Assembly (NCBI RefSeq): GCF_011065895.1
Contig: NZ_JAALCR010000008.1
Coordinates: forward strand, 248,001 to 312,000
DNA length: 64,000 nucleotides
Reading direction: 5' to 3'
Source of the DNA: Paludisphaera rhizosphaerae
Lineage (GTDB): Bacteria > Planctomycetota > Planctomycetia > Isosphaerales > Isosphaeraceae
Below the pieces are notes generated by a model. The model was not told the DNA's origin, made no database searches, and saw nothing but the letters and a program-made list of their open reading frames with translations. Positions 5,641 to 49,341 of this stretch are shown here, in pieces; position 1 is the stretch's first letter; the number at the start of each line of letters is the position of its first letter. Made by a program: the position numbers and the translations under genes.

Positions 5641-6407
5641 GGTTTGGACTCCCCCATCGCCCATCGGATTCCGTTGCGGAGAATCGTTCGGTAGAGCGGG
5701 TCGTCGTAGTGTTCGGGTTTGTGGCCGAGAGCCAGGTAGAACGTCCGGCCGCCGTCGGCCTTGAGGGTCCACGCCAGGGGGACGGAGTCGCCCAGCAGGC
5801 CGCCGGGGTCGGCCTTGATCTTACCGTCGTCGATCTTCGTGGGGTCGGTGACGAGGACGGGGTGGATGTCGGGGCTGAGGAACTCGTGATAGTAGCACTC
5901 GTCCTCCCAGGTGAAGGTCGAGGGGACGCCGGCGGCGACCGGGCTTTCCGCATCCTTCACGCGGACGGTGAACTTCTGAAGCTTGGGGTGTCGGCGAAAC
6001 TTGCCGCCGGCGATCGACCAGTAATACGGCCAGGTCCGCTCGGAGCCCGTCGCCGAGTGGATCCCCACGTAACCGCCTCCCGCCTTGATGAACCCCTTGA
6101 AGGCCTCGCGCTGGGCGTCGTCGGTGAAGGCCTCGTTGTTGCTGTTGGAGAAGATGAGAACCTTGTACTTCTTGAGGTTTTCGGGCGTGAAGACGGCGGG
6201 GTCGTCGGACGAATCCACGACGCAGCCCATCTCAGCGCCCAGGGCCTTCAAGGCCTCAACGCTGTGGGCGATGTTGGCGTGGACGTACCCCTTGCCGTCA
6301 GGGGTGTAGTTGCGGGTGTAGACCAGCAGCCGAGGCTCCGCCGCGAAGGCCGAGACGGGAACCAACAGGAGGAGGAACAGAGGGGCGAATCGCAGGCGGG
6401 TGATCAT
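5637..6407 (-). CDS. ThuA domain-containing secreted protein
   Basis: About 256 residues with a Sec signal peptide (residues 1-22, hydrophobic FLLLLVPVSA, ending AFA). The ThuA/glutamine-amidotransferase-like fold follows: LVYTRNYTP, a VVIDSSDD-like segment, GGGYVGIHSATGS (the GG-x-VGIH motif of the family) and a C-terminal AWTLKADGGRTFYLALGH. ThuA proteins occur in trehalose/disaccharide utilisation and in many planctomycete glycan loci, probably acting on sugars or sugar derivatives outside the cytoplasm. Its ATG overlaps the stop of the DUF6807 gene, and its own stop overlaps the start of the Gfo/Idh/MocA gene, both by 4 nt. The exact reaction is unknown. Confidence 0.9.
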   Translation of the reverse strand: MITRLRFAPLFLLLLVPVSAFAAEPRLLVYTRNYTPDGKGYVHANIAHSVEALKALGAEMGCVVDSSDDPAVFTPENLKKYKVLIFSNSNNEAFTDDAQREAFKGFIKAGGGYVGIHSATGSERTWPYYWSIAGGKFRRHPKLQKFTVRVKDAESPVAAGVPSTFTWEDECYYHEFLSPDIHPVLVTDPTKIDDGKIKADPGGLLGDSVPLAWTLKADGGRTFYLALGHKPEHYDDPLYRTILRNGIRWAMGESKP

Positions 6408-7606
6408 GGCTTGGTGTCTCCGGTGGGGAGCCATGCGGCTTTGCCTTCGAGGGCGAAGGCTTCGGTCAGGCGGTCGAGGCGAGCGGCGTCGGCAGGGCCG
6501 CGATGGATCCAGACGCGATAGCGAAGGACCGTCGGCCGACCGGGTTCCAGTGTCTTGGGCGTCACGCCAGGCCAGCCGACGCACAGAACGCCGTAGTGCC
6601 GAGTGAGCCAATTGGGGGGGAAGTCGGGGTGTTCGGGGGCCACGAGGATCGCTGCGCCAGTGGTCTCCGTTGCAGCGGCGAACTTCGCCGAGAAGTCGGC
6701 CCAGGGGAGCTTCGTCATCAGCAGGTCGTCGGGGCCGTTCCCCTTGGGGGTGGTGATGACAAGGTCGTGGCGCGGGGCGAATCGGAGATTCAAGCCGCCG
6801 TAGCTCTTGCCCGCCGCACCGTCGAGCGTCACCGGATCGGAGCCCGGCTCCAGGACGAGCGTCACATCGACGATCCGGGAATCACGGGTCGCCGGGTGAA
6901 CGTCGAGCCAGACGCGCTCGGTGAGCAGCTTGCGGCCGTCGGCCATCCAGCCGTTCTCGATTCCCAAGAGCGCCCCGGAAGGCCCCGTATCGCGAGCCAG
7001 CCAGCGGCCGAACTCGTGATGAACGCCCTTGAGCAGCCAGAGGTCGTATTCCTTGCCGCCGACGATGACGTGCGGCCAGGCCCAGAAGAGGCCGCGGTGA
7101 TGGAGATGATCGGCGGGGAAGTCGTCGGTCAGAGACTCGCCCTCGATCCCATAGAGCGGGTGGACGTAGCTGCTCCGCGAGCGATCCTCGGGCAGGCCGT
7201 CATGGCTGATGACGCCGTGGTTGTAGACCAGCACCGGCCGGTCGTTCTCCCAGAGCCCCAGCGAGCGACGGTCGACGTTGCGGAAGGTGAACGACGAGGC
7301 GTGCGTCGCGGCCGAGTCGGTCTCCAACTTGAACCGACGCTCGCCGCTCTCCGACGTTCCCGGGATGTCGGCGACAAGCCGTCCCGCACCCTCGGCCGGC
7401 GAGCCGTCGGCCTTGCGGTTCGGGACGATGAAGGCTGGAGCGGATGCCGTCCCACGCGCCTGCTCGACGAGTTTCAGGGCTTTCCCCTCGAAGCCGGCCG
7501 GCGCGGAGACCGAGACGCGGAGGGTTTCCTTTGAGGCCGGGACCGAGAGTATCGAGTCGTCTGCGGATACTGAGGAAGCGAGGACCAGCGAGAAGGCGAG
7601 AACCAT
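6404..7606 (-). CDS. DUF6807 (PmoA-type) secreted protein
   Basis: About 400 residues. The start was chosen at an ATG that gives a clean Sec signal peptide (VLAFSLVLASSVSA). Upstream in-frame codons run through a palindromic repeat and are unlikely to be translated. The family is recognised by RPVLVYNHG, the LHHRGLFWAW motif (conserved His pair), FGRWLARD and a late GVLCVGWPG segment. Proteins of this family are annotated DUF6807 or PmoA-like, with a galactose-mutarotase-like beta-sandwich. They occur beside Gfo/Idh/MocA and ThuA genes in planctomycetes, and no activity is established. It heads the three-gene operon, with ATGA coupling to ThuA. Confidence 0.85.
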   Translation of the reverse strand: MVLAFSLVLASSVSADDSILSVPASKETLRVSVSAPAGFEGKALKLVEQARGTASAPAFIVPNRKADGSPAEGAGRLVADIPGTSESGERRFKLETDSAATHASSFTFRNVDRRSLGLWENDRPVLVYNHGVISHDGLPEDRSRSSYVHPLYGIEGESLTDDFPADHLHHRGLFWAWPHVIVGGKEYDLWLLKGVHHEFGRWLARDTGPSGALLGIENGWMADGRKLLTERVWLDVHPATRDSRIVDVTLVLEPGSDPVTLDGAAGKSYGGLNLRFAPRHDLVITTPKGNGPDDLLMTKLPWADFSAKFAAATETTGAAILVAPEHPDFPPNWLTRHYGVLCVGWPGVTPKTLEPGRPTVLRYRVWIHRGPADAARLDRLTEAFALEGKAAWLPTGDTKP

Positions 7607-22137: not shown

Positions 22138-23364
22138 TCACTCGATCCCGGCGTAGCGACGGTTGAAGCGCCGGGCGCGTTCGACGAGAGCCGGATGGGA
22201 ACGAGAGTCAACGGTCAGGTCGGGCTGCCAGGGGAAGTGCCAGACCCAAACGGCGATCAGCGAGACGCCCTCTTCCTCGGCCATGTCGATGTAGGCACGA
22301 GCCCATCTGGCGTCGGGGTCGGATTTGAACGAGGGGACGTCCTGACCCATCTCGCCGACGAACAGGGGAAGACGTGCGGCCCTGACCGCGCGGGCCGTGA
22401 GGCGGGCTCGTTCGAGGGCGTCGGGACCATTCCCCTTCGGGCCGGCGTCGGTGGTTCCCGGGCCGTAATGGTGGAGACTGAAGAGGTCGAGCGGCTCGGG
22501 CTGGGCGGCCAGTTCATTGGCCAGATGCTCGCGCCAGGAATCGTCGCGATAGCGGAAGTCCGGGAAGGTCTCGCGACGGCTGGTCGCCTCGGGACGGACG
22601 CCCGCGTCGCCGCTCGTTACGGGACGGTCCGGGTCGATCGACTTGATGAACGCGGCCTGCTCGCGATAGACCCGCTGCACCATCTCCCAGGTCAGCGAGT
22701 CCTCGCGCTCGCCGGTCTCGCGGACGACGGCGCCTTCGGGATACACCCCACGCGGCAGGAGTGGGAGCCCCTTCATGTCGACGTCGGCGGCCAGCATGAG
22801 CTCGTTCTCCAGCTCCCAGGCCAGAACGGTGGGGTCGTCGTTGTAGCGTTTGACGAAGGTCTCGACGTAGCGACGGTTCTCCGCCCAGGTCTTCGACGAG
22901 GGGTCGAGGATCGCACTGCGGGGCTCGGCGAAGGCGAGATGACGGCTGGCGACGTTGAGGCAAGGGACCAACCGCACGCCCGACCGTTTGCAGAGGGCGA
23001 ATAGTTCGTCCATGCCTCGCCAGTAGGCGGCGGGATCGCGGTCGTAGAGCCGCGACGATTCGATCGGATACCCGGGCCCGGCGAAGAACCGGATGAACGC
23101 CATCCCGCTGCGCGAGGCGTCCGCGACGGCCTCCTCGGCGGCCGCCCGGGCTTTCTCGGGCGTGCCGTAGACGTGGGGGATATGGAACCAGGTCCCCAGG
23201 TAGATCTGGTGCAGATGCGGCACGTTCACGCCGATCGCGCGATACTCCCGCCCCTCCCGTTCGAGCCGAGGGCCTCGGGCCGTGACACGAGCCTCAACGG
23301 GCCCCTCGGCCAGCGCGGCGAGATTCCCGAGGAGTGCCACGACGACGAAGACGATTCGCTGCAT
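22138..23364 (-). CDS. Secreted GH5-like (clan GH-A) glycoside hydrolase
   Basis: A 408-residue protein with a Sec signal peptide (MQRIVFVVVALLGNLAALA). A TIM barrel of clan GH-A type follows: RAIGVNVPHLH near the first strand, FIRFFAGP, the acid/base WELENEL (Asn187-Glu188), LHHYGPG, and the nucleophile FVGEMGQ (Glu338). The pattern fits GH5, where mannanases and related endo-glycosidases are common, but the subfamily is not clear. Probably periplasmic or extracellular. It is divergent from the GH127-sulfatase gene (149-bp intergenic) and in line with the GH172 gene, suggesting a shared glycan target. Confidence 0.85.
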   Translation of the reverse strand: MQRIVFVVVALLGNLAALAEGPVEARVTARGPRLEREGREYRAIGVNVPHLHQIYLGTWFHIPHVYGTPEKARAAAEEAVADASRSGMAFIRFFAGPGYPIESSRLYDRDPAAYWRGMDELFALCKRSGVRLVPCLNVASRHLAFAEPRSAILDPSSKTWAENRRYVETFVKRYNDDPTVLAWELENELMLAADVDMKGLPLLPRGVYPEGAVVRETGEREDSLTWEMVQRVYREQAAFIKSIDPDRPVTSGDAGVRPEATSRRETFPDFRYRDDSWREHLANELAAQPEPLDLFSLHHYGPGTTDAGPKGNGPDALERARLTARAVRAARLPLFVGEMGQDVPSFKSDPDARWARAYIDMAEEEGVSLIAVWVWHFPWQPDLTVDSRSHPALVERARRFNRRYAGIE

Positions 23365-23513
23365 GTTGGGTTCCTGGATCCCTGTAAGAGGCTCGGCGGC
23401 GGCGACTCCGACGGTATCGCCTCACGGCGGCGGTGGCTAGCGGCGAGCGTCCGAATCGGGTCTATTGCCAACAAGGTCCACGCCTTGCGAAAACCCTCCC
23501 GAGAGACCACGGC

Positions 23514-26500
23514 ATGAAAATCCGCACGCCCATCGTCCTTGCGATCCTCGCCACGGCGTTCGCGACGGCCGCCGCGCCGCCGGATACGCCTCCGGAACGT
23601 CCGTTGCGAAAACCGGCGGGAATGCGGATGGACGCCTCGGGCCCGTTGCGGGCTTATCTCGACGCCGTTACGACGAACTGGCTCTTGCCAGCCCCGAAGG
23701 CGAACCCCGCCATGCTGGCGATGTTCGCCGACCGCGATCGACAGCCTTATCGCAACCTCCTGCCGTGGTCGGGGGAGTTCGCCGGCAAGTACCTCACGGG
23801 CGCGTCGCAGGTCTATCAGGCCACGCACAACCCTGAGCTGGGCAAGTCGCTCCGCGAGTTCGTCCGGGCGCTGCTGCCGCTGCAGGACGCCGACGGCTAC
23901 TTCGGACCCTTCCCGAAGGAGCATCGCCTGACCGGTTCGGCCCCGAACATCGACAACAAGCCGGGCTCCACCTGGGACGCCTGGGGGCATTATCACATGA
24001 TGCTCGGCCTCTTGACGTGGGATGAGGCCGTCGGCGATCCCGACGCCCTGGCCGCCGCCGTCAAGATCGCCGACCTGCTTTGCAACCGCTACCTCGGCGA
24101 GAAGCGGCCCAGGATGGTCGACGCCGGCTCGACCGAGATGAACCTCGCCCCGGCGCACGCGCTGATGATGGTTTATGAGAAGACCCGCCAGCCGAAGTAC
24201 CTGGAGTTGGCCAAGCAGGTCGTCGCCGAGTTCGCCGCGGTCGGCGGCGACGGCAAGCCGCTGGCCGGGGACTACCTCCGGCGCGGCCTCGCGGATGAAC
24301 CGTTCTACAAGACCCCCAAGCCTCGATGGGAGAGCCTGCACCCGATGGAGGCCCTCGCCGCGCTGGGGCGCGTCGAGGCCGACGCCGACGCCCGCAAGGC
24401 GTTCGCCAACCTCTGGTGGAGCATCGCCGAGCTGGACCGCCACGACAACGGCGGCTTTTCCTCCGGCGAGCAGGCCCAGGGCGACCCCTACCATCAAGGC
24501 GCCATCGAGACCTGCTGCACCATCGCCTGGCTCGCCCTCACGGCCGACATGCTCAAGCAGTCGGGCGACCCCGTCACGGCCGACGAACTGGAGCTTTCCA
24601 CGCTCAACTCGGCCCTCGGGATGTTCTCCCCCTCAGGCCGGTGGAGCACCTACAACACGCCGATGGATGGCGTCCGCCTCGCCAACTACCACGAGATCGT
24701 CTTCCAGTCCCGCCCGGGCTCGCCCGACTTGAACTGCTGCTCCGTGAATGCGGCTCGGGGGATCGGCCTGGTCTCGCAGTGGGCGCTCCTCAGCGACGAC
24801 GACGGCGTGATGATCCTGAACTGGTACGGAGCCGGCCGCCTTTCCGGCCGCCTGAAGGGAGGCGCGAACGTCGGCTTCGAGACGGAGAGCGACTACCCCG
24901 CCTCCGGCCGCGTCCGCATCAAGGTCCGCATCAATCAGCCCACGACCTTCCCACTAGCCTTGCGCATCCCCCAATGGTCGACCGCCACGAAGATCAGCGT
25001 CGCCGGCAAGGCTGAAGCCGACGTCAAACCGGCGACCTACCACAAGATCAATCGCGAGTGGAAGGACGGCGACGTCGTCGAGATCGACCTGGACATGACG
25101 CCCCGCGCCTGGGTCGGCGAGAAGGCTTCCGCAGGCCGTTCCGCCCTCTACGCTGGGCCGGTCTTGCTGGCCTACGACGCTCGCCTGAACGACAACGGCC
25201 CCGACGACCCCGAGCCGATCGACGCTCGCTCCATCAAGCTCGTCCCCGCTTCGTCATGGAAGGGACCGTACTCTCCGATCGTCCTCGCCGAGGCCAGGAC
25301 CACGGCCGGCAAGACGGTGAAGCTCTGCGACTTCGCCACCGCCGGCGCGGACGGCTCGCGCTACCGCTCGTGGCTTCGCGTCGAGAACGTCGCGGCGACG
25401 CCTTTCTCGCATGACCACACTTTCCGCACCGGACCGGCGACCACGCCGACGCCAGCGGCCGTCAACGCCCCGCCGAAGACGAAACGGCCGAACGTGCTGC
25501 TGATCCTGGCCGACGACATGGGCTTCTCCGATCTCGGCTGCTTTGGCGGCGAGATCGCCACGCCCAACCTGGATCGGCTGGCGGCGAACGGGCTGCGGTA
25601 CTCGCAGTTCTACAACACGGCGCGATGCTGGCCGTCGCGGGCGGCGATCATGACCGGCTATTACGCCCAGCAGGTCAACCGCGACCCTGCGAGGACGCGC
25701 CCAGGGTGGGCGGCGCTCCTGCCGCAGTTGCTCAAGCCGGCGGGGTATCGGGCTTATCACTCGGGCAAGTGGCACATCGACGGCCCGGTCCTGGCCGGAG
25801 GCTTCGATCGGTCGTACCTGTCTGAGGACTACGACCGCCATTTCACGCCGAAGAAGCACCAGATCGACGACAAGCCGCTGCCGCCGGTTAAGCCTGGCGA
25901 CGGCTACTACAGCACCACGGCCATCGCCGACCACGCCGTCGACTGGCTCGCTGAACACGAAAACAAACACAAGGACGAGCCGTTCCTCCTCTACCTGGCG
26001 TTCATCGCGCCCCACTTCCCGATCCAGGCGCCGCAGGAGGACATCGACCGCTATCGCACGCGATACCTCGAAGGCTGGGACGCCCTTCGCGAAGCCCGCC
26101 GCAATCGCCAGAAGGAGTTGGGGCTGCTTGACGCCGCGTTGTCTCCGCGCGACCCGAAGACGATCCCCAGTTGGAACCTCCCCGAAGCCGAACTGAAGAA
26201 GCGGATCGGCCCCGGCGAGGCCGGCTACGCCGTGGCCTGGGACTCGCTCACCGACGAGCAGAAGACGTTCCAGGCGACCAAGATGGCGATCCACGCCGCG
26301 ATGGTCGACCGCCTCGACCGCGAAGTCGGCAAGGTCCTGGCGAAGCTGGAGGCGGCAGGAATGATGGACGACACCCTCATCCTCTTCGCCTCCGACAACG
26401 GCGCCAGCGCCGAGGAGATCATCCGAGGCGACGGCCACGACCCGAACGCTCCCGCCGGCGCGGATCACACGTTCCTCTCGCTGGGCCCCGGTTGGTCGAC

Positions 26501-26990
26501 CGCGTCGAACACGCCCTTCCGGCTTCACAAGTCGTGGAACCATGAGGGAGGCGTGGCGACGCCGCTGATCGCCCACTGGCCGGCGCGGATCAAGTCGAAG
26601 GGTCAGTTCCGCCGCGCTCCGGGGCACCTGATCGACGTCGCCCCCACGCTGCTGGAGTTGGCGGGTCTCTCTGCTCCCGATTCGTGGGAAGGCCGCCCTC
26701 GGCCGTCACTGCCGGGCAAGAGCCTGGTCCCAACCTTCGACGCCGACGTCGCCGTTAATCGCGACGTCATCTTCTTCAGGCACGAGAAGAACAAGGCGCT
26801 CCGCCGGGGCGACTGGAAGATCGTCGCCGCCGGCCAGAACGCCCCGTGGGAACTCTACGACCTGGCCGTCGACCGCTCCGAGACCCGCAACCTCGCCGCC
26901 GAGAAGCCCGAGATCGTCCGAGAGATGGCCGAAATCTGGGGCCGTCTCGACCGTGAGTATCAAGAGCAGGGGGCCTCGGGGGGCAAGTAG
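23514..26990 (+). CDS. GH127 (beta-L-arabinofuranosidase-type) - sulfatase fusion, secreted
   Basis: One reading frame of 1158 residues encoding two complete enzymes. A Sec signal peptide (LAILATAFATAAA) precedes a GH127/DUF1680 domain (about 30-640) with the zinc-thiolate site Glu332 and Cys334 (IETCC) plus Cys408-Cys409 (NCCSVNA), matching the Glu, Cys and Cys-Cys site of HypBA1-type arabinofuranosidases. A short Pro/Thr linker leads to a sulfatase (about 663-1150): RPNVLLILADDMGFSDLG (Asp667, Asp668 metal ligands), CWPSR (Cys705, the formylglycine site), SGKWH and SDNGAS. The sulfatase part has no leader of its own. Predicted action: removing sulfate and L-arabinofuranose from one glycan outside the cytoplasm. 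No maturase gene is seen here. Confidence 0.9.
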   Translation: MKIRTPIVLAILATAFATAAAPPDTPPERPLRKPAGMRMDASGPLRAYLDAVTTNWLLPAPKANPAMLAMFADRDRQPYRNLLPWSGEFAGKYLTGASQVYQATHNPELGKSLREFVRALLPLQDADGYFGPFPKEHRLTGSAPNIDNKPGSTWDAWGHYHMMLGLLTWDEAVGDPDALAAAVKIADLLCNRYLGEKRPRMVDAGSTEMNLAPAHALMMVYEKTRQPKYLELAKQVVAEFAAVGGDGKPLAGDYLRRGLADEPFYKTPKPRWESLHPMEALAALGRVEADADARKAFANLWWSIAELDRHDNGGFSSGEQAQGDPYHQGAIETCCTIAWLALTADMLKQSGDPVTADELELSTLNSALGMFSPSGRWSTYNTPMDGVRLANYHEIVFQSRPGSPDLNCCSVNAARGIGLVSQWALLSDDDGVMILNWYGAGRLSGRLKGGANVGFETESDYPASGRVRIKVRINQPTTFPLALRIPQWSTATKISVAGKAEADVKPATYHKINREWKDGDVVEIDLDMTPRAWVGEKASAGRSALYAGPVLLAYDARLNDNGPDDPEPIDARSIKLVPASSWKGPYSPIVLAEARTTAGKTVKLCDFATAGADGSRYRSWLRVENVAATPFSHDHTFRTGPATTPTPAAVNAPPKTKRPNVLLILADDMGFSDLGCFGGEIATPNLDRLAANGLRYSQFYNTARCWPSRAAIMTGYYAQQVNRDPARTRPGWAALLPQLLKPAGYRAYHSGKWHIDGPVLAGGFDRSYLSEDYDRHFTPKKHQIDDKPLPPVKPGDGYYSTTAIADHAVDWLAEHENKHKDEPFLLYLAFIAPHFPIQAPQEDIDRYRTRYLEGWDALREARRNRQKELGLLDAALSPRDPKTIPSWNLPEAELKKRIGPGEAGYAVAWDSLTDEQKTFQATKMAIHAAMVDRLDREVGKVLAKLEAAGMMDDTLILFASDNGASAEEIIRGDGHDPNAPAGADHTFLSLGPGWSTASNTPFRLHKSWNHEGGVATPLIAHWPARIKSKGQFRRAPGHLIDVAPTLLELAGLSAPDSWEGRPRPSLPGKSLVPTFDADVAVNRDVIFFRHEKNKALRRGDWKIVAAGQNAPWELYDLAVDRSETRNLAAEKPEIVREMAEIWGRLDREYQEQGASGGK

Positions 26991-35761: not shown

Positions 35762-36697
35762 TTAGCGGGGAGACTCGTCGCGGGCGGGGGTCGGGGCGGC
35801 CTCGGCGACGGGCTCGAGCGGGGCGGTCTTCCTCCCCCTCTCGTCGATCACCCCCATCTGATTCCGATCGGCCCAGATCAAGACCATCCGCTGGGTCCGC
35901 TGATCGGGCTGGTCGCCCGAGGCCGTGAACAGAAACGCCCCGAGGCTGCGCTCCTGATCCGGGTGGCAGCCCAGAACGACCGTCTGGTTGGGCTCGACGA
36001 CGAGGTTCGCGGTCAGGTCGCTCAGGGCGTCCTGCTGCTGACCGTTAGCGATCTTGAATTCCTGCGGGGAGTAGCCGGGCCCCGGTTGAAGCGGCTGGTA
36101 CGAGGTTTGAACCTGCCCGTGGTGAACTTCGGGCGTGAGCCGCAGGGCGACCGAGCCGGCGTCGTGGTGCTCGGGGGTGACGCGGTAGAAGCCGGAGGCC
36201 TGGCTGTAGTCCTTGCCGGTGACGCGGCCCGCCAGGTTCAGCAGCAGGCTGACCTGATCCAGAGGCTCAGCGAGCGTGAACAGCTCCTGGGTCGACTCCG
36301 GAACCAGGAACGTGACCGGCTCGACCTTGTTCGGCGGCGGGGCGTTGAGCAGGGCTTCCAGCTCGCGCGGGAGGTCGCCGGTGATCCGGCCGATCCGCAC
36401 GCCGTTGGCCTGGAGCGCCTGACGTTCGGCAGGGGCGACGGCCTGCTCGTCGACCGATCGCCAGACGGTGTCATTGATGGTGGGATCGCGGAAGGGACGG
36501 CTGAGGATCGCCATCCGGAGGGTGACGCGCTTGGGCTCGATCATTTCGCCCCGGTTGGAGCCGAAACCGCCCAGAAGGTTGTCCGGACGGATGCCGTCCT
36601 TGCGGGCGTTACAGCCGCAGGCTCCCGCCAACCCCAGCGCCAGGCCCCCCAGGGCGGCCCGCCTCGTAACGCCCGAACGCCCTCGAAACGCACGCAT
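35762..36697 (-). CDS. Uncharacterised lipoprotein with Tat-like leader
   Basis: About 311 residues. The leader GVTRRAALGGLALGLAGACGC contains a twin-arginine pair and a lipobox ending at Cys29 (or Cys27), so the protein is probably a lipid-anchored envelope protein. The remainder is predicted beta-rich and has no domain I recognise: EPKRVTLRMAIL, DTVWRSVDEQAV, RITGDLPRELEALLN, VEPNQTVVLGCH and RTQRMVLIWADRNQMG. The last segment and its position suggest a secretin- or pilotin-like periplasmic role at most, but this is a guess. It is divergent from the histidine kinase gene with 150 bp between starts. The tail is Pro/Ala/Glu-rich. Confidence 0.75.
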   Translation of the reverse strand: MRAFRGRSGVTRRAALGGLALGLAGACGCNARKDGIRPDNLLGGFGSNRGEMIEPKRVTLRMAILSRPFRDPTINDTVWRSVDEQAVAPAERQALQANGVRIGRITGDLPRELEALLNAPPPNKVEPVTFLVPESTQELFTLAEPLDQVSLLLNLAGRVTGKDYSQASGFYRVTPEHHDAGSVALRLTPEVHHGQVQTSYQPLQPGPGYSPQEFKIANGQQQDALSDLTANLVVEPNQTVVLGCHPDQERSLGAFLFTASGDQPDQRTQRMVLIWADRNQMGVIDERGRKTAPLEPVAEAAPTPARDESPR

Positions 36698-36847
36698 GGC
36701 GCGGAATCCTTTCCGCAGGAACAGTGCCGGGACCTCCCCCGTCGACGGGGGGCGAGTGTAGGAGGACTTGACGGAGGCGTCAACCGCAGTCGATCTCGTC
36801 GATCGAGGGCATCTGCTCGAATGATCAGGTTGTAGGCGGAAGGGCCG

Positions 36848-39800
36848 ATGGTTATACCAGGTGACGAAGACTCTCCGCAGCCTCGCATCAGGACGAACAA
36901 CGAGGTCGAGCGACGTGGCCACGATTCGACGTGGAAGGATCCTCTGGTGACGGCCCTGCATGCCGCGATTGCATCCGCGGCGGGCCTTGACGCCGCACGC
37001 CTGCTGGGCGTCGCGACGGCCCTCGGCTGCGCGGCGGCGGCCTTGCTGCTGGCGCGACGGTTCGGCCGGGCCGTCGGCGGCTCGGCCAGGCTGCCTCGTT
37101 CGGTTTTGGGAGCCATAACGGCGTTCGTCGCGCTCTCGGCCGCAGGCGCGCTCTCGACGGCCCTCGGCGATCCTCTTCCCGGCGTTCGGCCGATTCTGGC
37201 GGCGGGGCAGGCGGTCGCCGCATGGGCCGCGGCGCTGAGGCTCGCGAAGGGGGGCCGAGTCTTGCCCCCCGCACCCGACGCCGAGGACGAGAACGGCCCC
37301 GACTGCGAGACCGCCGTCGACCCCGACTCGCTCTCCGAGGCCCTCGGCCAGGCTCGCCGCGACGCCCGCTGGCTCCGGCTCTTCGCCAGCCGGACCGAGG
37401 AGGGGATGATCGTCACCGACGCCCGCCATCGGATCCAGTGGGTCAACGCCGGCTTCACCCGGATCACCGGTTACGACGCCGACGAGGTCCTCGGCCGCGT
37501 CCCGGGCGCCTTCCTCCAGGGGCCGGAGTCCGATCCCGCCGTCCGAGCCTTCATCAGCCAGCGACTCCGCGCCGAGAAGCCAGTGCGGGCGGAGATCCTC
37601 AACTACGCCAAGAGCGGCCGGGCGTACTGGGCGGCGATGGAGATCCAGCCCCTCTTCGACGCCGACGGCCGGCTGGTGAACTTCCTCTCGGTCCAGACCG
37701 ACGTTACCGAGCGCAAGCGGGCCGAGCGCCGACTGGAAGCCCAGTACGCCGTGATGCGGATCCTGGGGGACTGCACCCGACTGGACGAAGCAGCCCCCCA
37801 CCTGCTGGCGACGATCGGCCGAACGCTCGACTTCGACGTGGCCGCCTTCTGGATCTGGGATCGCAACGCTCGGTCTCCCCGGCCGGCGGGTCGGCCCTGG
37901 TCGTCGGGCCGGGTCGACGCCTCCTCGGCCGTCGAGGGCCTGGGGAACAGCCTCGCCGGGCCGATGGAGCGGGTCTGGACGACCGGCGCTCCGGCCTGGG
38001 TCTCTGAGATCGCCGCCGACCGCACCTCCCCCGGGACCGAGACGCCCCGCCGCGGCGTCCGGAGCGTGGTCATCATCCCGGTGGCCGACGCCGAGAAGTC
38101 CCCGCTGATCGGCGTGCTGACCCTCTTCAGCCGCGAGCCCCTCGCCCGCGACGAGCCTCTGCTGCAGGTGCTCACGACGCTCGGCCGGCAGGTCGGCCTG
38201 TTCGCCGAACGCCGGAAGGCGGTCCGTGAACAGATCGAGATCAACGCGCGGCTCAACGCGATGCTCGACGCCTCCACCCAGTCGGCCATTGTGGCGACCG
38301 ATCCGACCGGCCTCATCACGATTTTCAACACCGGCGCCGAGCGGATGCTGGGATACACGGCCGGCGAGATGATCGGCCGGACGACCCCATTGATTCTCCA
38401 CGACACCGCCGAGGTCGCCGCCCGCGCCGCCGATCTGGCCGCCGAGACCGGCCGCCCCGCCCAGGGCTTCGAGGCCCTCGTCGCCCGGGCCCGCCGCGAC
38501 GACCATGACGTCCGCGAGTCGACCTTCGTCCGCAAGGACGGCACGAAAATCCCCGTCCTGCTGGCCGTCACCGCCGTCCGCGACCCCGAGGGAGTGCTCC
38601 GCGGCTTCCTCAACATCGCCACCGACCTCAGCCAGCGCCAGGCGGCCGAGCGCCAGGTGCGATTGAGCGAGGCCCGGCTGCGGAGGCTCGTCGAGGCCAA
38701 CATCTTCGGCGTGGCCTTCGGCGAGATGACCGGCGCGCTGACCGACGCCAACGACGCCTTCCTGGACATGCTGGGATATTCGCGCGACGAGCTGGCCGAC
38801 GGCGGCGTCCACTGGCTGAACCTCGTTGAAGACACGTCCACGCGGTGGGTCCGCCGCTGCCGGGTGCAGCTTGCCAAGCACGGCTCCTGCACGCCGTTCG
38901 AGATCCAGGTGCGCCGCAAGGACGGCCGAACGCTGCCCATCCTGCTGGGCCTGGCCCGGCTCGACGAGACCCGCCACGACGCCCGCGCGCCGATCGTCGC
39001 CTTCTGCCTGGACCTCACCGAGCGCAAGGATCTGGAGGACGAGCTTCGCCGCCACGCCGCGGATCTCGCCGAGGCCGACCACCGCAAGAACCAGTTCCTC
39101 GCCATGCTCGGCCATGAGCTGCGCAACCCGCTGGCCCCGATCCGCAACGCCGTCGCCCTGCTCAAGCGCCGGGGAGGCGACGACCCGGACCTCGTCTGGG
39201 CGCGAGACGTGATCGACCGGCAGGTCTCGCAACTCGCCCATCTGGTCGGCGACCTGCTGGAGATCGCCCGGGTGGATCGCGGCAAGATCGCGCTCCAGAA
39301 GACGCCGACCGACGTGGCCGCAGTCGTCACGGCGGCCGTGGAGACCAGCCGGCCCGAGATCGACGCCCACGGCCACAGCCTGTCGATCGTGCTCCCGCCC
39401 GTTCCGACCTTCGTCATGGCGGACCCGATCCGGATGGCCCAGGTCCTCTCCAACCTGCTGCACAACGCGGCCAAGTACACCCGCGACGGCGGCTCGATCC
39501 AGATCTCCGCCGCCGAGGAGAACGGCTGGGCCGTCTTCCGGGTCCGCGACGACGGCATAGGCATCCCCCCCGAGATGCTCGGCCGCGTCTTCGACGTCTT
39601 CACCCAGGTCGACCGCACGCTCGACCGCTCCGAGGGGGGCCTGGGCCTGGGCCTGGCGCTGGTCCGCAGCCTCGTTGAGCTGCACGGGGGGACCGTCGAG
39701 GCCCGCAGCCAGGGCCTCGGTCGCGGCAGCGAGTTCAGCGTCCGCCTGCCGGTCGTCGCCGCCGAGCCGAACGTCGACTCCCAGGCGCCGATCGACGCCG

Positions 39801-40231
39801 AGGCCGAGCCCGAATCCGCGCCTCCCATCATCATGCCGTCGCGGCGCGTGCTGGTGGTCGACGACAACGTCTCCTCCTCCGAGAGCCTGGCGTTGGTCCT
39901 GCAGTATGAGGGCCATGAGGTGGAGGTCGTCCACGACGGGCCGGCCGCTCTCCAGGCGGTGGCCGATCGAGATTTCGACGTGGTCTTCATGGACATCGGC
40001 CTCCCCGGCATGAACGGCTACGACGTGGCGAGGAACCTCCGCGCTCGTCCCGAACTGGCCTCGCTCCCCATCGTCGCCGTCACCGGCTACGCCGACGACG
40101 AGGCCCGCCGCCTCTCCCACGAGGCCGGCTTCGACCACCACTTCGTCAAGCCCGTCGACCCCGACGCCATCCTCGCCTACGTGGCCTCCCTCGAATGGTC
40201 CGAGCCCCAGCCCGCCCCCGCCGAACTCTAA
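36848..40231 (+). CDS. Hybrid sensor histidine kinase (PAS-GAF-PAS-PAS-HisKA-HATPase-REC)
   Basis: A 1127-residue inner-membrane signalling protein. Residues about 30-135 hold three hydrophobic segments. A LOV-like PAS domain follows (about 170-295: NAGFTRITGYDADEVLGR, FLQGP), then a GAF domain (about 305-465), PAS (about 470-605) and PAS (about 610-735). HisKA has MLGHELRNPLAP, with the phospho-accepting His756. The ATPase domain carries LLHNAAKYT, DDGIGIPPEM and GLGLGLALV. The C-terminal receiver has VVDDN, Asp1049 in FMDIGLPG, VTGY and KPVD. The first PAS lacks the LOV photoactive cysteine. The receiver may pass phosphate to an unlinked phosphotransfer protein, since no response regulator is adjacent. 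Confidence 0.93.
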   Translation: MVIPGDEDSPQPRIRTNNEVERRGHDSTWKDPLVTALHAAIASAAGLDAARLLGVATALGCAAAALLLARRFGRAVGGSARLPRSVLGAITAFVALSAAGALSTALGDPLPGVRPILAAGQAVAAWAAALRLAKGGRVLPPAPDAEDENGPDCETAVDPDSLSEALGQARRDARWLRLFASRTEEGMIVTDARHRIQWVNAGFTRITGYDADEVLGRVPGAFLQGPESDPAVRAFISQRLRAEKPVRAEILNYAKSGRAYWAAMEIQPLFDADGRLVNFLSVQTDVTERKRAERRLEAQYAVMRILGDCTRLDEAAPHLLATIGRTLDFDVAAFWIWDRNARSPRPAGRPWSSGRVDASSAVEGLGNSLAGPMERVWTTGAPAWVSEIAADRTSPGTETPRRGVRSVVIIPVADAEKSPLIGVLTLFSREPLARDEPLLQVLTTLGRQVGLFAERRKAVREQIEINARLNAMLDASTQSAIVATDPTGLITIFNTGAERMLGYTAGEMIGRTTPLILHDTAEVAARAADLAAETGRPAQGFEALVARARRDDHDVRESTFVRKDGTKIPVLLAVTAVRDPEGVLRGFLNIATDLSQRQAAERQVRLSEARLRRLVEANIFGVAFGEMTGALTDANDAFLDMLGYSRDELADGGVHWLNLVEDTSTRWVRRCRVQLAKHGSCTPFEIQVRRKDGRTLPILLGLARLDETRHDARAPIVAFCLDLTERKDLEDELRRHAADLAEADHRKNQFLAMLGHELRNPLAPIRNAVALLKRRGGDDPDLVWARDVIDRQVSQLAHLVGDLLEIARVDRGKIALQKTPTDVAAVVTAAVETSRPEIDAHGHSLSIVLPPVPTFVMADPIRMAQVLSNLLHNAAKYTRDGGSIQISAAEENGWAVFRVRDDGIGIPPEMLGRVFDVFTQVDRTLDRSEGGLGLGLALVRSLVELHGGTVEARSQGLGRGSEFSVRLPVVAAEPNVDSQAPIDAEAEPESAPPIIMPSRRVLVVDDNVSSSESLALVLQYEGHEVEVVHDGPAALQAVADRDFDVVFMDIGLPGMNGYDVARNLRARPELASLPIVAVTGYADDEARRLSHEAGFDHHFVKPVDPDAILAYVASLEWSEPQPAPAEL

Positions 40232-40611
40232 CGCCGCCGTTGGCTTCGCTTGCATACGGAGCCAATTCGGAGGTCAGACGCAAGTTGTTGTGCAACAAGG
40301 CTTTGGTCGCGGTTTCCGGGTCTCGCGGATTGGCTTCGATCGGCCAGAAAGGCGACATCGACGGGGACGAGAATGGGGCTGTTACCGATCGTGCGCCTAC
40401 GACGAGCGCCTCACGGGGACAAGCGTGGGCACGGTGTCTGGAAGGTAGGTCGATCGTCGTCATGGGGGCGGCCTCATGGAAGGTCTGTCTATCGATACAA
40501 TGGGAGCGCGGGGCGAATTCTGAACGGGAAATCGCCCCGCCCGTTGCCGCCGTTGCTCGTTAGAATCAGTCCGCGTGAACAGATCCCCAATACCGGAGCG
40601 AGCCGTCAGAC
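40232..40611. other. Intergenic region with hairpin and palindrome half
   Basis: No convincing gene in 380 bp; short open frames here lack codon bias and family features. A hairpin with arms GCGGGGCGA (40508-40516) and TCGCCCCGC (40532-40540) and a 15-nt loop lies 70 nt before the J-domain gene. ACAAGCGTGGGCACGG (40419-40434) closely matches half of the palindrome at 45675-45699. The segment 40255-40330 is less GC-rich than its surroundings and may hold a promoter. Confidence 0.5.
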
Positions 40612-43235: not shown

Positions 43236-44957
43236 ATGCCGATGGACCAGCCGCGACGGGCGTTCCTCAAGGGGGGTCTCGCCGGCCTCGCCTATCTGGG
43301 ATCGGGGTGCATTCAGTCGGCACGGGCGCACGACCGGCCTCACGGGGCGGGCCAAAAGACGAGGTCGTCGGTGATCGCGCGTGGCGGCGTGGCGGCGACG
43401 AGCCAACCGCTCGCCAGCGCGGCGGCGATCCGCGTGCTTCAGAAGGGAGGCAACGCCATCGACGCCGCCATCGCGGCCAACGCCGTGCTGGGCGTCGTCG
43501 AGCCGATGTCATGCGGGATCGGCGGCGACCTCTTCGCGATCGTCTGGGATCCGAAGTCGAAGAAACTCCACGGCCTGAACGCCAGCGGCCGATCTCCGGG
43601 CAAGGCGGACATCGCCGGCTTCCGCGCCCGGGGCCTGGACATGATCCCCACCAGCGGCCCGTTGAGTTGGTCGGTCCCTGGCTGCGTCGACGGCTGGGAC
43701 AACCTCAGGCGCAAGTTCGGGACGCTTGGCTGGGCCGACATCCTCGGCCCGGCGATCGAGTACGCCGAGGGGGGCTTCCCCGTCTCCGAGATCATCTCCG
43801 GCGACTGGCGGCTCTCAGCGCGGTCGTTGTCGCGCGTGCCGACCTCCGCCGCCTGCTATCTTCGCGAAGGCCGAGCGCCCGCCGAAGGGGACGTCTTCCG
43901 CAATCCGTACCTGGCGAAATCGCTGCGGGCGGTCGTCGACGGCGGTCGCGACGCCTACTACAAAGGCCCCATCGCCGAGGCGATCGTCCGCTATTCGGAT
44001 TCGGTGGGCGGACTGTTCGCGGGGTCGGACTTCGCCGAGCACACGTCGAGCTGGGTCGACCCAGTCTCCACCAACTATCGCGGCTACGACGTCTGGGAAT
44101 TGCCCCCCAACGGCCAGGGGATCGCTGCGCTCCAGATGCTCAACCTGCTGGAAGCCTACGACCTCAAGAGCATGGGCCCGCAGTCGGCCCAGGCGTTGCA
44201 CCTTCAGATCGAGGCCAAGAAGCTCGCCTACGAGGATCGCGGCCGCTACTACGCCGATCCGGACAAGGCTGAGGTCCCCGTCCGCGAGTTGATCTCCAAG
44301 GAGTACGCGGACCGTCGCCGCAAGCTCATCGACCCCAACCGGGCCAACGACAAGCCCATCCCCGGCGATCCCAAGGGAGACACGATCTACATGACGGTCG
44401 TCGACGGCTCGTTCCTGGCCGTCAGCCTGATCCAGAGCAACTACAACGGCTTCGGCTCGGGACACGTCCCCGGCGAGTTGGGGTTCGCCCTCCAGAATCG
44501 CGGCTGTCAGTTCAACCTGGCCCCCGCGCACCCGAACCGGCTGGAACCTCGCAAGCGGCCCTTCCACACGATCATCCCGGCGTTCGTCACCAAGAACGGA
44601 GCGCCCTGGTTGAGCTTCGGCCTGATGGGAGGCGACATGCAGGCCCAGGGCCACGCGCAGATGATCTGCAACATGGTCGACTTCGACATGGACGTGCAAG
44701 AATCCGGCGACGCCCCACGCTTCCATCACTTCGGCTCGACCGAGCCCACCGGCGTCCCGGCCAAGGGAGGCGGCACGACGGCCCTCGAATCCGAGATCGG
44801 CCCCGACGTCCGCCAGGCGCTGGAGGCCAAGGGCCACAAGCTCGTCGAATCCCGAGGCGGCTTCGGCGGCTACCAGGCCATCCGCATCGACGTCGACCGC
44901 GGCGTCCTCATCGGCGGCACCGACCCGCGCAAAGATGGCGCGGCGATGGGATTCTGA
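43236..44957 (+). CDS. ggt: Gamma-glutamyltransferase, predicted Tat lipoprotein
   Basis: A 573-residue N-terminal-nucleophile hydrolase. Segments GGVAATSQPLASAAAIRVLQ, GGNAIDAAIAANAVLGVVEP and GIGGDLFAIV are the classic large-subunit start. Thr383 in GDTIYMTVVD is the expected self-cleavage site and nucleophile of the small subunit, and SFGLMGGDMQAQGH and GGTDPRKDG follow. The leader RRAFLKGGLAGLAYLGSGC combines a twin-arginine motif with a lipobox Cys, so the enzyme is probably exported folded and lipid-anchored. The family transfers or hydrolyses the gamma-glutamyl bond of glutathione and similar peptides. GGGAG lies upstream of the first ATG; an ATG 6 nt later is possible. Confidence 0.92.
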   Translation: MPMDQPRRAFLKGGLAGLAYLGSGCIQSARAHDRPHGAGQKTRSSVIARGGVAATSQPLASAAAIRVLQKGGNAIDAAIAANAVLGVVEPMSCGIGGDLFAIVWDPKSKKLHGLNASGRSPGKADIAGFRARGLDMIPTSGPLSWSVPGCVDGWDNLRRKFGTLGWADILGPAIEYAEGGFPVSEIISGDWRLSARSLSRVPTSAACYLREGRAPAEGDVFRNPYLAKSLRAVVDGGRDAYYKGPIAEAIVRYSDSVGGLFAGSDFAEHTSSWVDPVSTNYRGYDVWELPPNGQGIAALQMLNLLEAYDLKSMGPQSAQALHLQIEAKKLAYEDRGRYYADPDKAEVPVRELISKEYADRRRKLIDPNRANDKPIPGDPKGDTIYMTVVDGSFLAVSLIQSNYNGFGSGHVPGELGFALQNRGCQFNLAPAHPNRLEPRKRPFHTIIPAFVTKNGAPWLSFGLMGGDMQAQGHAQMICNMVDFDMDVQESGDAPRFHHFGSTEPTGVPAKGGGTTALESEIGPDVRQALEAKGHKLVESRGGFGGYQAIRIDVDRGVLIGGTDPRKDGAAMGF

Positions 44958-45726: not shown

Positions 45727-48141
45727 ATGACGGCCTTTTACTCCCGTCGTTCTCGGCTAGCACAGGCGTTCGTTCTGTTCGCGACGCTCATCGGCGTGGC
45801 GCAAGCGCAGGAGGCCCCGAAGATCGCCCCTCGGCTGCAGCCGTTCGTCGACGACGGGACCGTCGCCGGGGTGGTGACGCTGGTGGCGACTCCGCAACAG
45901 GTGCTGGACGTGGAGGCCGTCGGCTGGGCGGACGTGGCGGCGAGAAAGCCGATGACGACGGACGCCGTCTTCTGGATCGCCTCGCAGTCCAAGCCGATCA
46001 CGGGCGCGGCGCTGATGATCCTGGTCGACGAGGGGAAAGTCGACGTCGAGGATCCGGTCGAGAAGTATCTGCCCGAGTTCAAGGACGTCCGCGTGGCCGT
46101 ACCGGGAGGCGAGCCGAAGCCGCCGGCCCACCCGATCAAGGTTCGCGAGATTCTCAGCCACACCAGCGGCCTGCCGTTCAGCTCGCCGATCGAGAAGCCG
46201 ACTCTTGACCTCTTCCCGCTGGCCGAGCGCGTCCGCAGCTACACGACTGTGCCCCTCCTGTTCGAGCCGGGGACGAAGTCGCAATACTCCAACGCCGGGA
46301 TCAACACGGCCGGGCGGATCATCGAGGTCGTCTCCGGCATGCCGTATGAGACGTTCCTCAATGAACGCATCTTCAAGCCTTTGGGCATGGTCGACGCCAC
46401 GTTTCGACCCACGGGCGCGAGATTGGCCCGCGTGGCGAAGTCTTACAAGCCCGTCGCGGGCAAGCTGGAAGAGACGACCATCAGCCAGCTCAAGTACCCG
46501 CTCGATTCCCTCGACCGCCAGCCGATGCCCGCTGGCGGCCTCTTCGCCACGGCCGACGACGTGCGCCGGTTTTATCAGATGCTGGCCAACGACGGCGTCT
46601 TCGAGGGGAAGCGGATCCTCTCCGAGAAGGCCGTCCGGATGATGACCTCCGACCAGTCGGGCGAGGCCCATTCGCACTACGGGTTCGGCATCGGCGTGGG
46701 GGGCGACGGCAAAACGTTCTCCCACGGCGGGGCCTATGGCACGGACTCAGGCTACGACAAGGGCCGACGGCTCATCACGGTCTTCCTCGTCCAGCAGGCT
46801 TCGTGGACGGATCGCGGCAAGACGGTTTTGCCGACCTTCAAGAAGGCCGCCTTCGAGACCTTCGAGTCGAAGTCCAGGGCCGCAGCGGCGGCCGACGCTC
46901 CGAAGCCGAACATCGTGGTGTTGCTCGCCGACGACCTTGGCTTCGGCGACGTGGGCTGCTTCGGGCACCCTCGGATCAAGACGCCCGTGATCGACGGCCT
47001 GGCGCGCGAGGGGGCTCGCTTAACGTCCATGTACGCTGGGGCGCCGGTCTGCTCGCCTTCTCGGGCGGCGATGTTCAGCGGGCGGAATCCGAACCGAGTG
47101 GGCGTCCGCGACTGGATCGACCAGGGCTCGGGCGTGCATCTGGATCGTTCGGCGGTGACGGTGGCCCAGCGGTTGAAGGAAGCCGGTTACACGACGTGCC
47201 TGGCGGGCAAGTGGCACCTCAACAGCAAGTTCGACGGCCAGGAGCCCACGCCCGGCGACTTCGGCTTCGACTACTGGTTCGCCACCCAGAACAACGCCAA
47301 GCATCAGGACCCGACCAACTACGTCCGCAACGGCAAGCGTGTCGGCCCGCTCAAGGGGCACGACACGTCGGTGATGGTCGACGAGACCATCAGCTTCATC
47401 GAGAAAGCCGGCGACCGCCCCTTCGCCGCGTTCGTCACGTTCCACGCTCCCCACGAGCAGATCGAGACCCCCGCCGAGTACAAGGCGATGTACTCAGACG
47501 TCGCCGACGAGACGACCCGCGACTACTACGGCAGCGTCACCCTCATCGACCACGAAGTCGGCCGGCTCCTGGCGGCGCTCGACGCCCACGGCCTGCGCGA
47601 GAAGACCCTCGTCGTGTTCACCAGCGACAACGGCCCCGAGGGTTACCTCCGCTACCCCAAGGCGATCCACTCGCATGGCTCGGCCTCGCCGTTGCGGGGG
47701 ATGAAGTTGTCGATGTTTGAGGGGGGCTTCCGAGTCCCCGGCGTCGTCCGCTGGCCCGGCCGCGTCAAACCGGGGACGGAGATCGCTGAACCCGTCGCCT
47801 TCTACGACCTGCTCCCCACCTTCTGCGCCCTCGCCGGGACGACCCCGACCGGGCCGACCGACGGCGCGAACGTGCAACCGCTCCTGGAAGGCCGCGTCTC
47901 AACCGTCGACCGCTCCGTCCCGCTCCACTGGCAGTACGACAACTCCCCCGACGGCCCCTGGCGCCTGGCCGTCCGCCGCGGCCCCTGGAAACTTCTCGCC
48001 GACGCCGACCGCAGGCAATTCGCCCTCTTCAACCTCGCCGAAGACGTCGCCGAAGCCCACGATAAGGCCGCGGAGCATCCGGAGATCGTCAAGGAGTTGA
48101 GCGCGGATTTGAACCGCCTTTATGTGCCGCCGAAGTCATGA
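45727..48141 (+). CDS. Beta-lactamase-like serine hydrolase - sulfatase fusion, secreted
   Basis: One frame of 804 residues with a Sec-type leader (residues 1-27, ending AQA). Residues about 30-375 form a class C beta-lactamase/penicillin-binding-type esterase: SQSK (Ser86, Lys89), YSN (Tyr187) and SHGG (His333). After a short Ala-rich linker, a complete sulfatase spans about 396-800: NIVVLLADDLGFGDVG (Asp402, Asp403), CSPSR (Cys442, formylglycine site), GKWHL, FHAPHEQ and TSDNGPEG. The sulfatase has no leader of its own. The N-terminal domain may be an esterase or D-aminopeptidase rather than an antibiotic-hydrolysing enzyme. The design parallels the GH127-sulfatase fusion at 23514-26990. 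No formylglycine-generating enzyme gene is nearby. Confidence 0.88.
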   Translation: MTAFYSRRSRLAQAFVLFATLIGVAQAQEAPKIAPRLQPFVDDGTVAGVVTLVATPQQVLDVEAVGWADVAARKPMTTDAVFWIASQSKPITGAALMILVDEGKVDVEDPVEKYLPEFKDVRVAVPGGEPKPPAHPIKVREILSHTSGLPFSSPIEKPTLDLFPLAERVRSYTTVPLLFEPGTKSQYSNAGINTAGRIIEVVSGMPYETFLNERIFKPLGMVDATFRPTGARLARVAKSYKPVAGKLEETTISQLKYPLDSLDRQPMPAGGLFATADDVRRFYQMLANDGVFEGKRILSEKAVRMMTSDQSGEAHSHYGFGIGVGGDGKTFSHGGAYGTDSGYDKGRRLITVFLVQQASWTDRGKTVLPTFKKAAFETFESKSRAAAAADAPKPNIVVLLADDLGFGDVGCFGHPRIKTPVIDGLAREGARLTSMYAGAPVCSPSRAAMFSGRNPNRVGVRDWIDQGSGVHLDRSAVTVAQRLKEAGYTTCLAGKWHLNSKFDGQEPTPGDFGFDYWFATQNNAKHQDPTNYVRNGKRVGPLKGHDTSVMVDETISFIEKAGDRPFAAFVTFHAPHEQIETPAEYKAMYSDVADETTRDYYGSVTLIDHEVGRLLAALDAHGLREKTLVVFTSDNGPEGYLRYPKAIHSHGSASPLRGMKLSMFEGGFRVPGVVRWPGRVKPGTEIAEPVAFYDLLPTFCALAGTTPTGPTDGANVQPLLEGRVSTVDRSVPLHWQYDNSPDGPWRLAVRRGPWKLLADADRRQFALFNLAEDVAEAHDKAAEHPEIVKELSADLNRLYVPPKS

Positions 48142-48169
48142 GAGGAGAGTTGCAGCCGCGACGAAGCAG

Positions 48170-48265
48170 CTCAGGATTCGAGCTTGCGAGGTTGTCGCAC
48201 ATCCAGGCTTAGGTCTCGTCGGCGTCCGCCAGCGCTCGATGCGTGATCTTCAGGCGATAGGTCAC
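48170..48265 (-). pseudogene. Remnant of a ParE/RelE-type toxin gene with in-frame stop
   Basis: A GTG overlapping the antitoxin stop (GTGA) begins a frame reading VTYRLKITHRALADADET, then TAA at 48211-48209, then AWMCDNLASSNPE in the same frame. This matches the N-terminal region of ParE-family toxins, which typically read YRVxITPRALxDLxEIYxWI, with the stop at the expected Tyr (TAC to TAA is one change). After about 32 codons similarity ends and the frame runs into the end of the convergent sulfatase gene, so most of the toxin is missing. The position directly after an antitoxin gene supports the assignment. It should not make a working toxin. Confidence 0.68.
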
Positions 48266-48552
48266 CGCGATAATCCGTGCTTGTTCCGCGCGTGTTCCTT
48301 GAGTTCATCGAGCGAGACCGTGCGGCCGGCCTTCATGTCCTCGATTCCCTCCCGGATCCCCTCAAAGATCCGCGCCGCCTCGACGAGTTCGCGTAGCTTC
48401 TGGTAAGAGGCCGCGTCCTGAACGACGACCTCCGCCTTGCCGTTGATCGTCAGGACGATGGGCTCGCCCGTCTCCTTCAACTGCTGGATGAATTCGGGCG
48501 TGCTCTTCTTGAAGTCAGTCAACGACTGGATGTCCCGGCTGACGTCGAACAT
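48262..48552 (-). CDS. Phd/YefM-type antitoxin
   Basis: About 96 residues, starting MFDVSRDIQSLTDFKKST, with AAAGGAAG 4 nt before the ATG. The fold is Phd/YefM: N-terminal DNA-binding part with PEFIQQLKETGEPIVLTINGKAEVVVQDAASYQKL, followed by a long helix and a charged C-terminal toxin-binding tail (AGRTVSLDELKEHARNK). It should repress its own promoter: a near-perfect 22-bp palindrome overlaps the -10 box. The toxin gene that should follow survives only as a short fragment with a stop codon, so this is now an orphan antitoxin. Confidence 0.88.
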   Translation of the reverse strand: MFDVSRDIQSLTDFKKSTPEFIQQLKETGEPIVLTINGKAEVVVQDAASYQKLRELVEAARIFEGIREGIEDMKAGRTVSLDELKEHARNKHGLSR

Positions 48553-48574
48553 GGCACTTCCTTTCGAGATCGAA

Positions 48575-48596
48575 TAAGAACCGAATTCGATTCTTA
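48575..48596. promoter_or_regulatory. Probable antitoxin operator (22-bp palindrome)
   Basis: TAAGAACCGAATTCGATTCTTA, split as TAAGAA-CCGAATTCGA-TTCTTA, is palindromic except for one mismatched pair. It lies 23 bp before the antitoxin ATG and overlaps the predicted -10 box. Phd/YefM antitoxins bind such palindromes to repress their own operon. Confidence 0.6.
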
Positions 48597-48618
48597 GCGA
48601 TCCCTCGATCGACGTCAA
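48591..48618 (-). promoter_or_regulatory. Predicted sigma-70-type promoter of the antitoxin gene
   Basis: On the minus strand, TTGACG (48618-48613) and TAAGAA (48596-48591) are 16 nt apart. The -10 box forms one end of the palindromic operator, so repressor binding would block RNA polymerase. Confidence 0.55.
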
Positions 48619-48636
48619 TCCGTGCCTTTGCTTGGC

Positions 48637-49341
48637 TCATTGCAAACCGACGCGCCCTCCGCCGTCATGAACCCGGCGTGACCGCTTCGGTCCCTCATAG
48701 AGCCACTCGCCGTCGGTGGCGGTGCCGGCCGAGGGGATGACGATGCGATAACGGTCGTCCTGACCTTTGGCTTCGTAGAGAACCTGGTGATCGGCGAATT
48801 CGCTCCCCAGGCGATTCACGAGGTCGTCGGTCGAGTAGAAGTACGACAGGCCGTTCCGCTCGTCGACACTGCCTTCGTCGAGCACATGGAAGGCGTCGGG
48901 GTGGGCGACGTTCATGCGGAGGCTGCCGTCGTAGACGTTCCGGGCGTCGCGGGCGTACTGCCGGCCGAGGACCTGGAACGTGTCGCGATCGGCGTCCTGG
49001 ACGATCGAGTCGTCGAAGTAAATGTGGTTCTTGTCTCGGGCGTAGCGGTCTCCCTTCAGGAACTCGAAGGTCGCGCCGTCGAATCCTTCGAGGACGACGC
49101 CCGCCTTGTAGACGTGGGCCTTGTCGCAGGCGTAACCCGGGGCGGCCAGCACGCGAAAGGTCGCGACGTCGGCGTCGACCTTCCTCACCTCGCGGCCGAT
49201 CGATTCGTTGATGGTCACATAAGTCCACTCGCCGCCGCTCTTCACGTAGCCCGTGGTGCACCCCGCGGCCACAAGGCAGGCCAGGATGAGGATCAACCGC
49301 AGCGGGATCCCGAAGCGAGCGTCGAATTGCCGGATCGTCAT
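48637..49341 (-). CDS. DKNYY-repeat lipoprotein
   Basis: A 234-residue protein with a lipoprotein signal (LILILACLVAAGC, lipidated Cys28). The mature part contains DKNYY-type repeats: YACDKAHVYKAGVVLEGFD, YARDKNHIYFDDSIVQDAD and YARDARNVYDG, each followed by a TFxVL segment. DKNYY repeats are common in bacterial secreted and lipid-anchored proteins and have no established biochemical role. It is probably anchored in a membrane facing the periplasm. Transcribed in the same direction as the antitoxin gene downstream, but 84 bp and a separate promoter lie between them. Confidence 0.8.
   Translation of the reverse strand: MTIRQFDARFGIPLRLILILACLVAAGCTTGYVKSGGEWTYVTINESIGREVRKVDADVATFRVLAAPGYACDKAHVYKAGVVLEGFDGATFEFLKGDRYARDKNHIYFDDSIVQDADRDTFQVLGRQYARDARNVYDGSLRMNVAHPDAFHVLDEGSVDERNGLSYFYSTDDLVNRLGSEFADHQVLYEAKGQDDRYRIVIPSAGTATDGEWLYEGPKRSRRVHDGGGRVGLQ

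Follow-up and report, generated by a model that had tools for sequence, protein, structure and literature searches.

The window analysed here, the whole 64,000-nt stretch of Paludisphaera rhizosphaerae DNA, carries a gene in which a serine hydrolase and a sulfatase follow one another in a single frame. The features of this gene and of its surroundings, with the basis of each assignment, are as follows:

45727-48141 (+): fused gene, 804 aa, with a precursor of ~87.7 kDa (open reading frame and computed mass)
45727-45807 (+): signal peptide, read by eye, with likely cleavage after AQA at residue 27
45835-46812 (+): PF00144 serine hydrolase module, residues 37-362, with S86xxK89, Y187-S-N189 and H333-G-G335 (Pfam and motifs)
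46864-46899 (+): joint and linker ESKSRAAAAADA, residues 380-391 (alignment and synteny)
46906-47838 (+): PF00884 sulfatase module, residues 394-704, with C442 in CSPSR as the predicted formylglycine site (Pfam and motifs)
47710-48120 (+): SGSH_C-like C-terminal part of the sulfatase, residues 662-798 (PF16347, Pfam)
43236-44957 (+): gamma-glutamyltransferase (GGT) gene, which marks a moved block (gene order)
23433-26990 (+): GH127 beta-L-arabinofuranosidase-like enzyme joined to a sulfatase, 1185 aa (open reading frame and profiles)

From the ATG at 45727, which has a Shine-Dalgarno-like GGAG 9 nt upstream, the fused frame runs without an internal stop to the stop codon at 48139-48141; a sigma-70 promoter scan of this GC-rich region found nothing. 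The protein is ordered as a signal peptide, the PF00144 serine hydrolase, an Ala-rich linker of ~10 residues and a formylglycine-type sulfatase with its SGSH_C part. The leader is made up of RRSR, a hydrophobic stretch and AQA, and no second one exists in the protein, given that the sulfatase module has neither a start codon nor a hydrophobic core, and no ATG occurs between codon 337 and this module. The initial annotation, which had read the locus as one frame with a single leader and expected a product of about 88 kDa, agrees with the stop-free frame, the lack of a second signal peptide and the computed mass of 87.7 kDa. The architecture that it proposed was also recovered, with PF00144 and PF00884 matched at E 2.6e-66 and E 3.8e-60, respectively, both modules at full length according to Pfam, and all of its motifs present (SQSK 86-89, YSN 187-189, SHGG 332-335, LADD 400-403 and CSPSR 442-446), the catalytic motifs of both enzymes being intact.

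The PF00144 match scores 224.5 bits, against a cut-off of 27, and covers profile positions 5-315 of 329 (E 2.6e-66), with the three-motif set of the PF00144 serine hydrolases found as SQSK at 86, YSN at 187 and HGG at 333. The nearest solved relatives of this half are EstG, the ester hydrolase EH7 and a family VIII carboxylesterase (PDB 7uda, 7pp3 and 4ivi), that is, the closest solved structures are esterases of the family VIII kind, and the NCBIfam class C beta-lactamase equivalog reaches 46 bits, far below its cut-off of 415. Given that solved esterases are nearest and that the class C cut-off is missed by far, ester hydrolysis appears more likely than beta-lactam hydrolysis. Of the earlier label “class C beta-lactamase-type esterase”, the class C part is not borne out (46 vs 415 bits), and from its sequence the module is more aptly called a putative PF00144 esterase of the EstB/family VIII-like type. 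It would act as an SxxK serine esterase that forms an acyl-enzyme on Ser86, with the participation of Lys89 and Tyr187.

The C-terminal half matches PF00884 with 204 bits (E 3.8e-60) and contains the sulfatase catalytic set, assigned by motif, of D402/D403, K495, H497, H573, D634/N635 and K660, with CSPSR at 442. The combination of PF00884, a CxPxR motif and this catalytic set is that of a formylglycine (S1) sulfatase, in which Cys442 would be converted by FGE before folding. A true FGE is likely encoded in the genome, where a profile search with PF03781, a broad family, gave a best match of 288 bits. The best solved matches are carbohydrate sulfatases (PDB 3ed4, 9fo1 of S1_16, and 6b0j and 6prm for carrageenan), which are ~30% identical and scattered across several SulfAtlas S1 subfamilies, and at this identity a substrate cannot be transferred to the predicted sulfatase.

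The synteny breakpoint, at 46871-46885, separates the final hydrolase residues from the sulfatase signal peptide, with the hydrolase block reaching window position 46870 and the sulfatase block starting at 46886. According to the protein alignment, the hydrolase is kept to ~10 residues short of the shortest natural C-terminus, and on the sulfatase side an AADA-like signal-peptide end is retained, with the start codon and hydrophobic core lost; the AAAAADA of the linker resembles the end of a sulfatase signal peptide. Given that the hydrolase C-terminus is near complete and that the sulfatase has lost its start and signal-peptide core alone, no catalytic part is missing on either side. The junction DNA is single-copy in the genome. 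An AlphaFold model of the whole chain, which is mediocre (mean pLDDT 67, pTM 0.52, alignment of 10 sequences), matches both folds without defining the domain interface, and continues a helix through residues 363-390 with low confidence.

No fused orthologue was found in 40 relatives, in which each match corresponds to one half, nor among the 45 available genomes of the family, 297 genomes of the class and 392 genomes of the phylum, these three sets overlapping, with the 2-3 best candidates per genome scored in the class and phylum sets. Nine loci on GTDB contigs each hold one half alone, the fusion occurs in 0 of 295 plasmid records, a six-frame check of the loci up to L073 revealed no other open reading frame with both halves, and no paper on a PF00144-PF00884 fusion was found in the literature. 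The orthologues of the two halves are adjacent in no other genome listed. Judged on these sequences, the PF00144-sulfatase fusion is lineage-specific and not a conserved architecture, and the earlier remark that the pairing is unexpected holds in the sense that it is unusual, with no other fused orthologue found. Two kinds of candidates were rejected, namely an apparent tandem in genome G040 (query 12-456, with two TAG), which is a chance extension beyond the hydrolase stop, and the long frames in G050, G230 and G332, each of which contains a sulfatase alone.

The unfused parents can be seen in a genome of the same genus (G005), where one contig, C98, carries the sulfatase orthologue at 23191-24447 (+, 72% identical) and the hydrolase orthologue at 47647-48774 (-, 70%), as separate genes ~23 kb apart on opposite strands. 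The comparison of the window with this 95-kb contig (L026-L028, L088, L089) yields ~14 blocks in a shuffled and partly inverted order, and the hydrolase and sulfatase blocks that meet at the joint come from different places and strands of the contig, with the GGT-hydrolase order kept in both G005 and G001. Given the ~23 kb and the opposite strands that separate the G005 orthologues, an origin from adjacent genes through the loss of a stop was rejected, and one mis-called stop cannot explain the frame.

The next-best matches within the genome itself are 44% identical for the hydrolase and 39-44% for the sulfatase, and a close unfused copy is lacking for both halves. On the branch of this genome, dN/dS was calculated by hand from pairwise NG86 values as ~0.28 for the hydrolase and ~0.26 for the sulfatase, which is not above the values of the unfused G005 branch (0.51 and 0.46, respectively). 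Both halves look to be under purifying selection and neither looks decayed, although the fusion may be younger than much or most of this branch.

The window contains just one more sulfatase, at 23433-26990 and 22 kb from the PF00144-sulfatase gene, and it is likewise part of an end-to-end fusion. Here the GH127 part extends to its natural end, FRTGP (FRTGPPQE or the like in relatives), and the sulfatase part is without its signal peptide, as in the PF00144 fusion. This GH127-sulfatase fusion is absent from the relatives, its parts being separate genes across the 45 family genomes. Across the genome, 51 matches exceed the sulfatase family cut-off; the twelve other longest sulfatase frames were scanned and contain no second enzyme, and the remaining frames are too short by length. 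If all 51 were equally likely, the chance that the two fused sulfatases would be the two of the window is 1 in 1275, a value computed after the fact. Two fusions in one window suggest a local cause, which fits the shuffled gene order, and the pair in one reshuffled stretch is a more unusual point than the single fusion, which is of modest interest.

The PF00144-sulfatase gene is probably a genuine lineage-specific end-to-end fusion, formed through local reshuffling and encoding one exported two-enzyme protein; we infer the export, the activity of both modules and the rearrangement as the cause. Local reshuffling in an ancestor would have put the GGT-hydrolase block directly 5' of the sulfatase gene, and the joint would have deleted the hydrolase stop codon together with the upstream region, start and signal-peptide core of the sulfatase, with the frame kept. 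The product would then be exported once, by way of the hydrolase leader, with the short linker tethering the two active sites.

The fused frame is far beyond chance, and the sole doubt lies between a real fusion and the assembly, where the evidence favours the former. The fusion is carried by one genome, a draft of 110 contigs, in which two separate genes may have been misjoined at ~46870-46886, and perhaps again at ~25440-25485, as would fit the draft state, the single occurrence, the separate genes always present in relatives and the two unique fusions inside one window, which may hint at an assembly problem. On the other hand, the contig is 325 kb long and the joint is single-copy DNA, so that no repeat would have misled the assembler or explains a misjoin. 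Moreover, each joint keeps the reading frame and lies where a complete C-terminus meets a module that has lost its signal peptide, whereas an arbitrary misjoin is expected to cut modules or break the frame, and the partners are non-adjacent in G005, so that the loss of a stop is insufficient. The initial annotation held that homologues consistently encoded as two genes with a stop between them would imply an assembly error; the homologues are indeed consistently two genes, but as they lie at distant loci, and not back to back with a stop, an assembly slip near the joint does not follow. A chimaera is improbable.

The initial annotation proposed a sulfated, acylated glycan or peptide as the possible target, and the fusion may be a dedicated tool, its esterase deacylating and its sulfatase desulfating one and the same glycan step by step. 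Such stepwise action in a single chain has been characterised for P36 of Formosa agariphila, whose S1_25 sulfatase and GH78 rhamnosidase act one after the other on ulvan (PMC8511951). In Formosa, three sulfatase homologues (40-45% identical) lie 5-9 bp behind a PF00756 esterase gene, two BD-FAE esterase genes precede the sulfatase orthologue in G042, where the hydrolase orthologue is itself fused to a BD-FAE esterase, and a glucuronoyl-esterase-like gene and an apiosidase-like gene occur in the window. The Formosa cases represent one lineage, however, the orthologues of the two halves are non-adjacent in every other genome listed, and conserved esterase neighbours of the sulfatase clade were not found in the planctomycetes, given that a clear one lies within ~5 kb in just one of 26 relatives. 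Beside this single planctomycete case and three of three in Formosa, 0 of 20 control sulfatases gave a match to the BD-FAE and PF00756 queries, a weak, distant CE15-like match and a partial PF00144 match each being seen once among the controls; the outcome is not significant. These neighbourhoods are a hint of, and not support for, a shared substrate, and we regard the dedicated-tool reading as rather unlikely. It is less probable still that cleavage of the exported precursor, for instance within AAAAADA, releases two free enzymes, with the fusion altering co-expression alone: an AxA-like trace of the sulfatase signal peptide does survive in the linker, but not the hydrophobic core that signal peptidase requires, and in the model a helix appears to run on through 363-390, at low confidence.

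A broader reading, which is doubtful, sees this carbohydrate-enzyme region as a hot spot where local reshuffling repeatedly places a sulfatase devoid of its signal peptide behind a secreted hydrolase, giving functional, selected fusions, of which the PF00144-sulfatase and the GH127-sulfatase would be parallel products, each coupling desulfation to the removal of another substituent. Both enzyme types of the PF00144 fusion are well known and the chemistry is probably ordinary; its value lies in the fact that a genome of the same genus shows the two unfused parent genes, the separate place of each and the breakpoint. Two events in one shuffled region form a natural experiment on two questions: whether the end-to-end joining of secreted polysaccharide enzymes is favoured by selection or is neutral, and whether esterase-sulfatase tethering helps on decorated glycans.

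Other arrangements were also recorded. In G042, a PF00144 orthologue is fused to a BD-FAE esterase domain (L070:3757-5823, -), a two-enzyme fusion in which this hydrolase has another partner, and contig C13 of the P. rhizosphaerae genome has an 826-aa frame that joins a PF00144 module to a complete NamZ exo-muramidase (L125:1264-3741, +). In the Formosa loci L035, L037 and L038, the PF00756 esterase gene and the sulfatase homologue that follows it after 5-9 bp lie around 5060-7450, and L035, which was scanned in full, encodes SusD, a sugar transporter, GH30 and a further sulfatase as well. Within the window, a 1497-aa frame at 35762-40255 (-) lies antisense to a multi-sensor histidine kinase, and its composition suggests a GC-rich shadow frame and no gene.

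Among known systems, EstG, EH7 and the family VIII carboxylesterase share the PF00144 fold of the N-terminal half, and PDB 3ed4, 9fo1, 6b0j and 6prm the formylglycine sulfatase fold of the C-terminal half, but all of these are single-enzyme proteins, unlike the fused protein, the sulfatases being ~30% identical. The stand-alone PF00144 orthologues of the same genus (G001, 73% identical to the hydrolase module; G005 and G002, 70% each) have the same kind of leader, the same SQSK, YSN and HGG motifs and the same length up to the natural C-terminus, but end at their own stop without a sulfatase. Similarly, the stand-alone sulfatase orthologues (G005, 72%; G042, 69%; G014, 68%) have the same sulfatase module and C-x-P-x-R motif, but possess their own upstream region, start codon and signal peptide, unlike the fused module. 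P36 resembles the fused protein in that one chain unites a sulfatase with another hydrolase, although its partner is a rhamnosidase unrelated to PF00144 (PMC8511951), and a conserved multi-enzyme architecture of the P36 kind was not found here, as no second genome with the fusion was found. Finally, the PF00144-NamZ and PF00144-BD-FAE proteins carry a second enzyme at the PF00144 C-terminus, as the fused protein does, with a muramidase or an esterase as the partner instead of a sulfatase.
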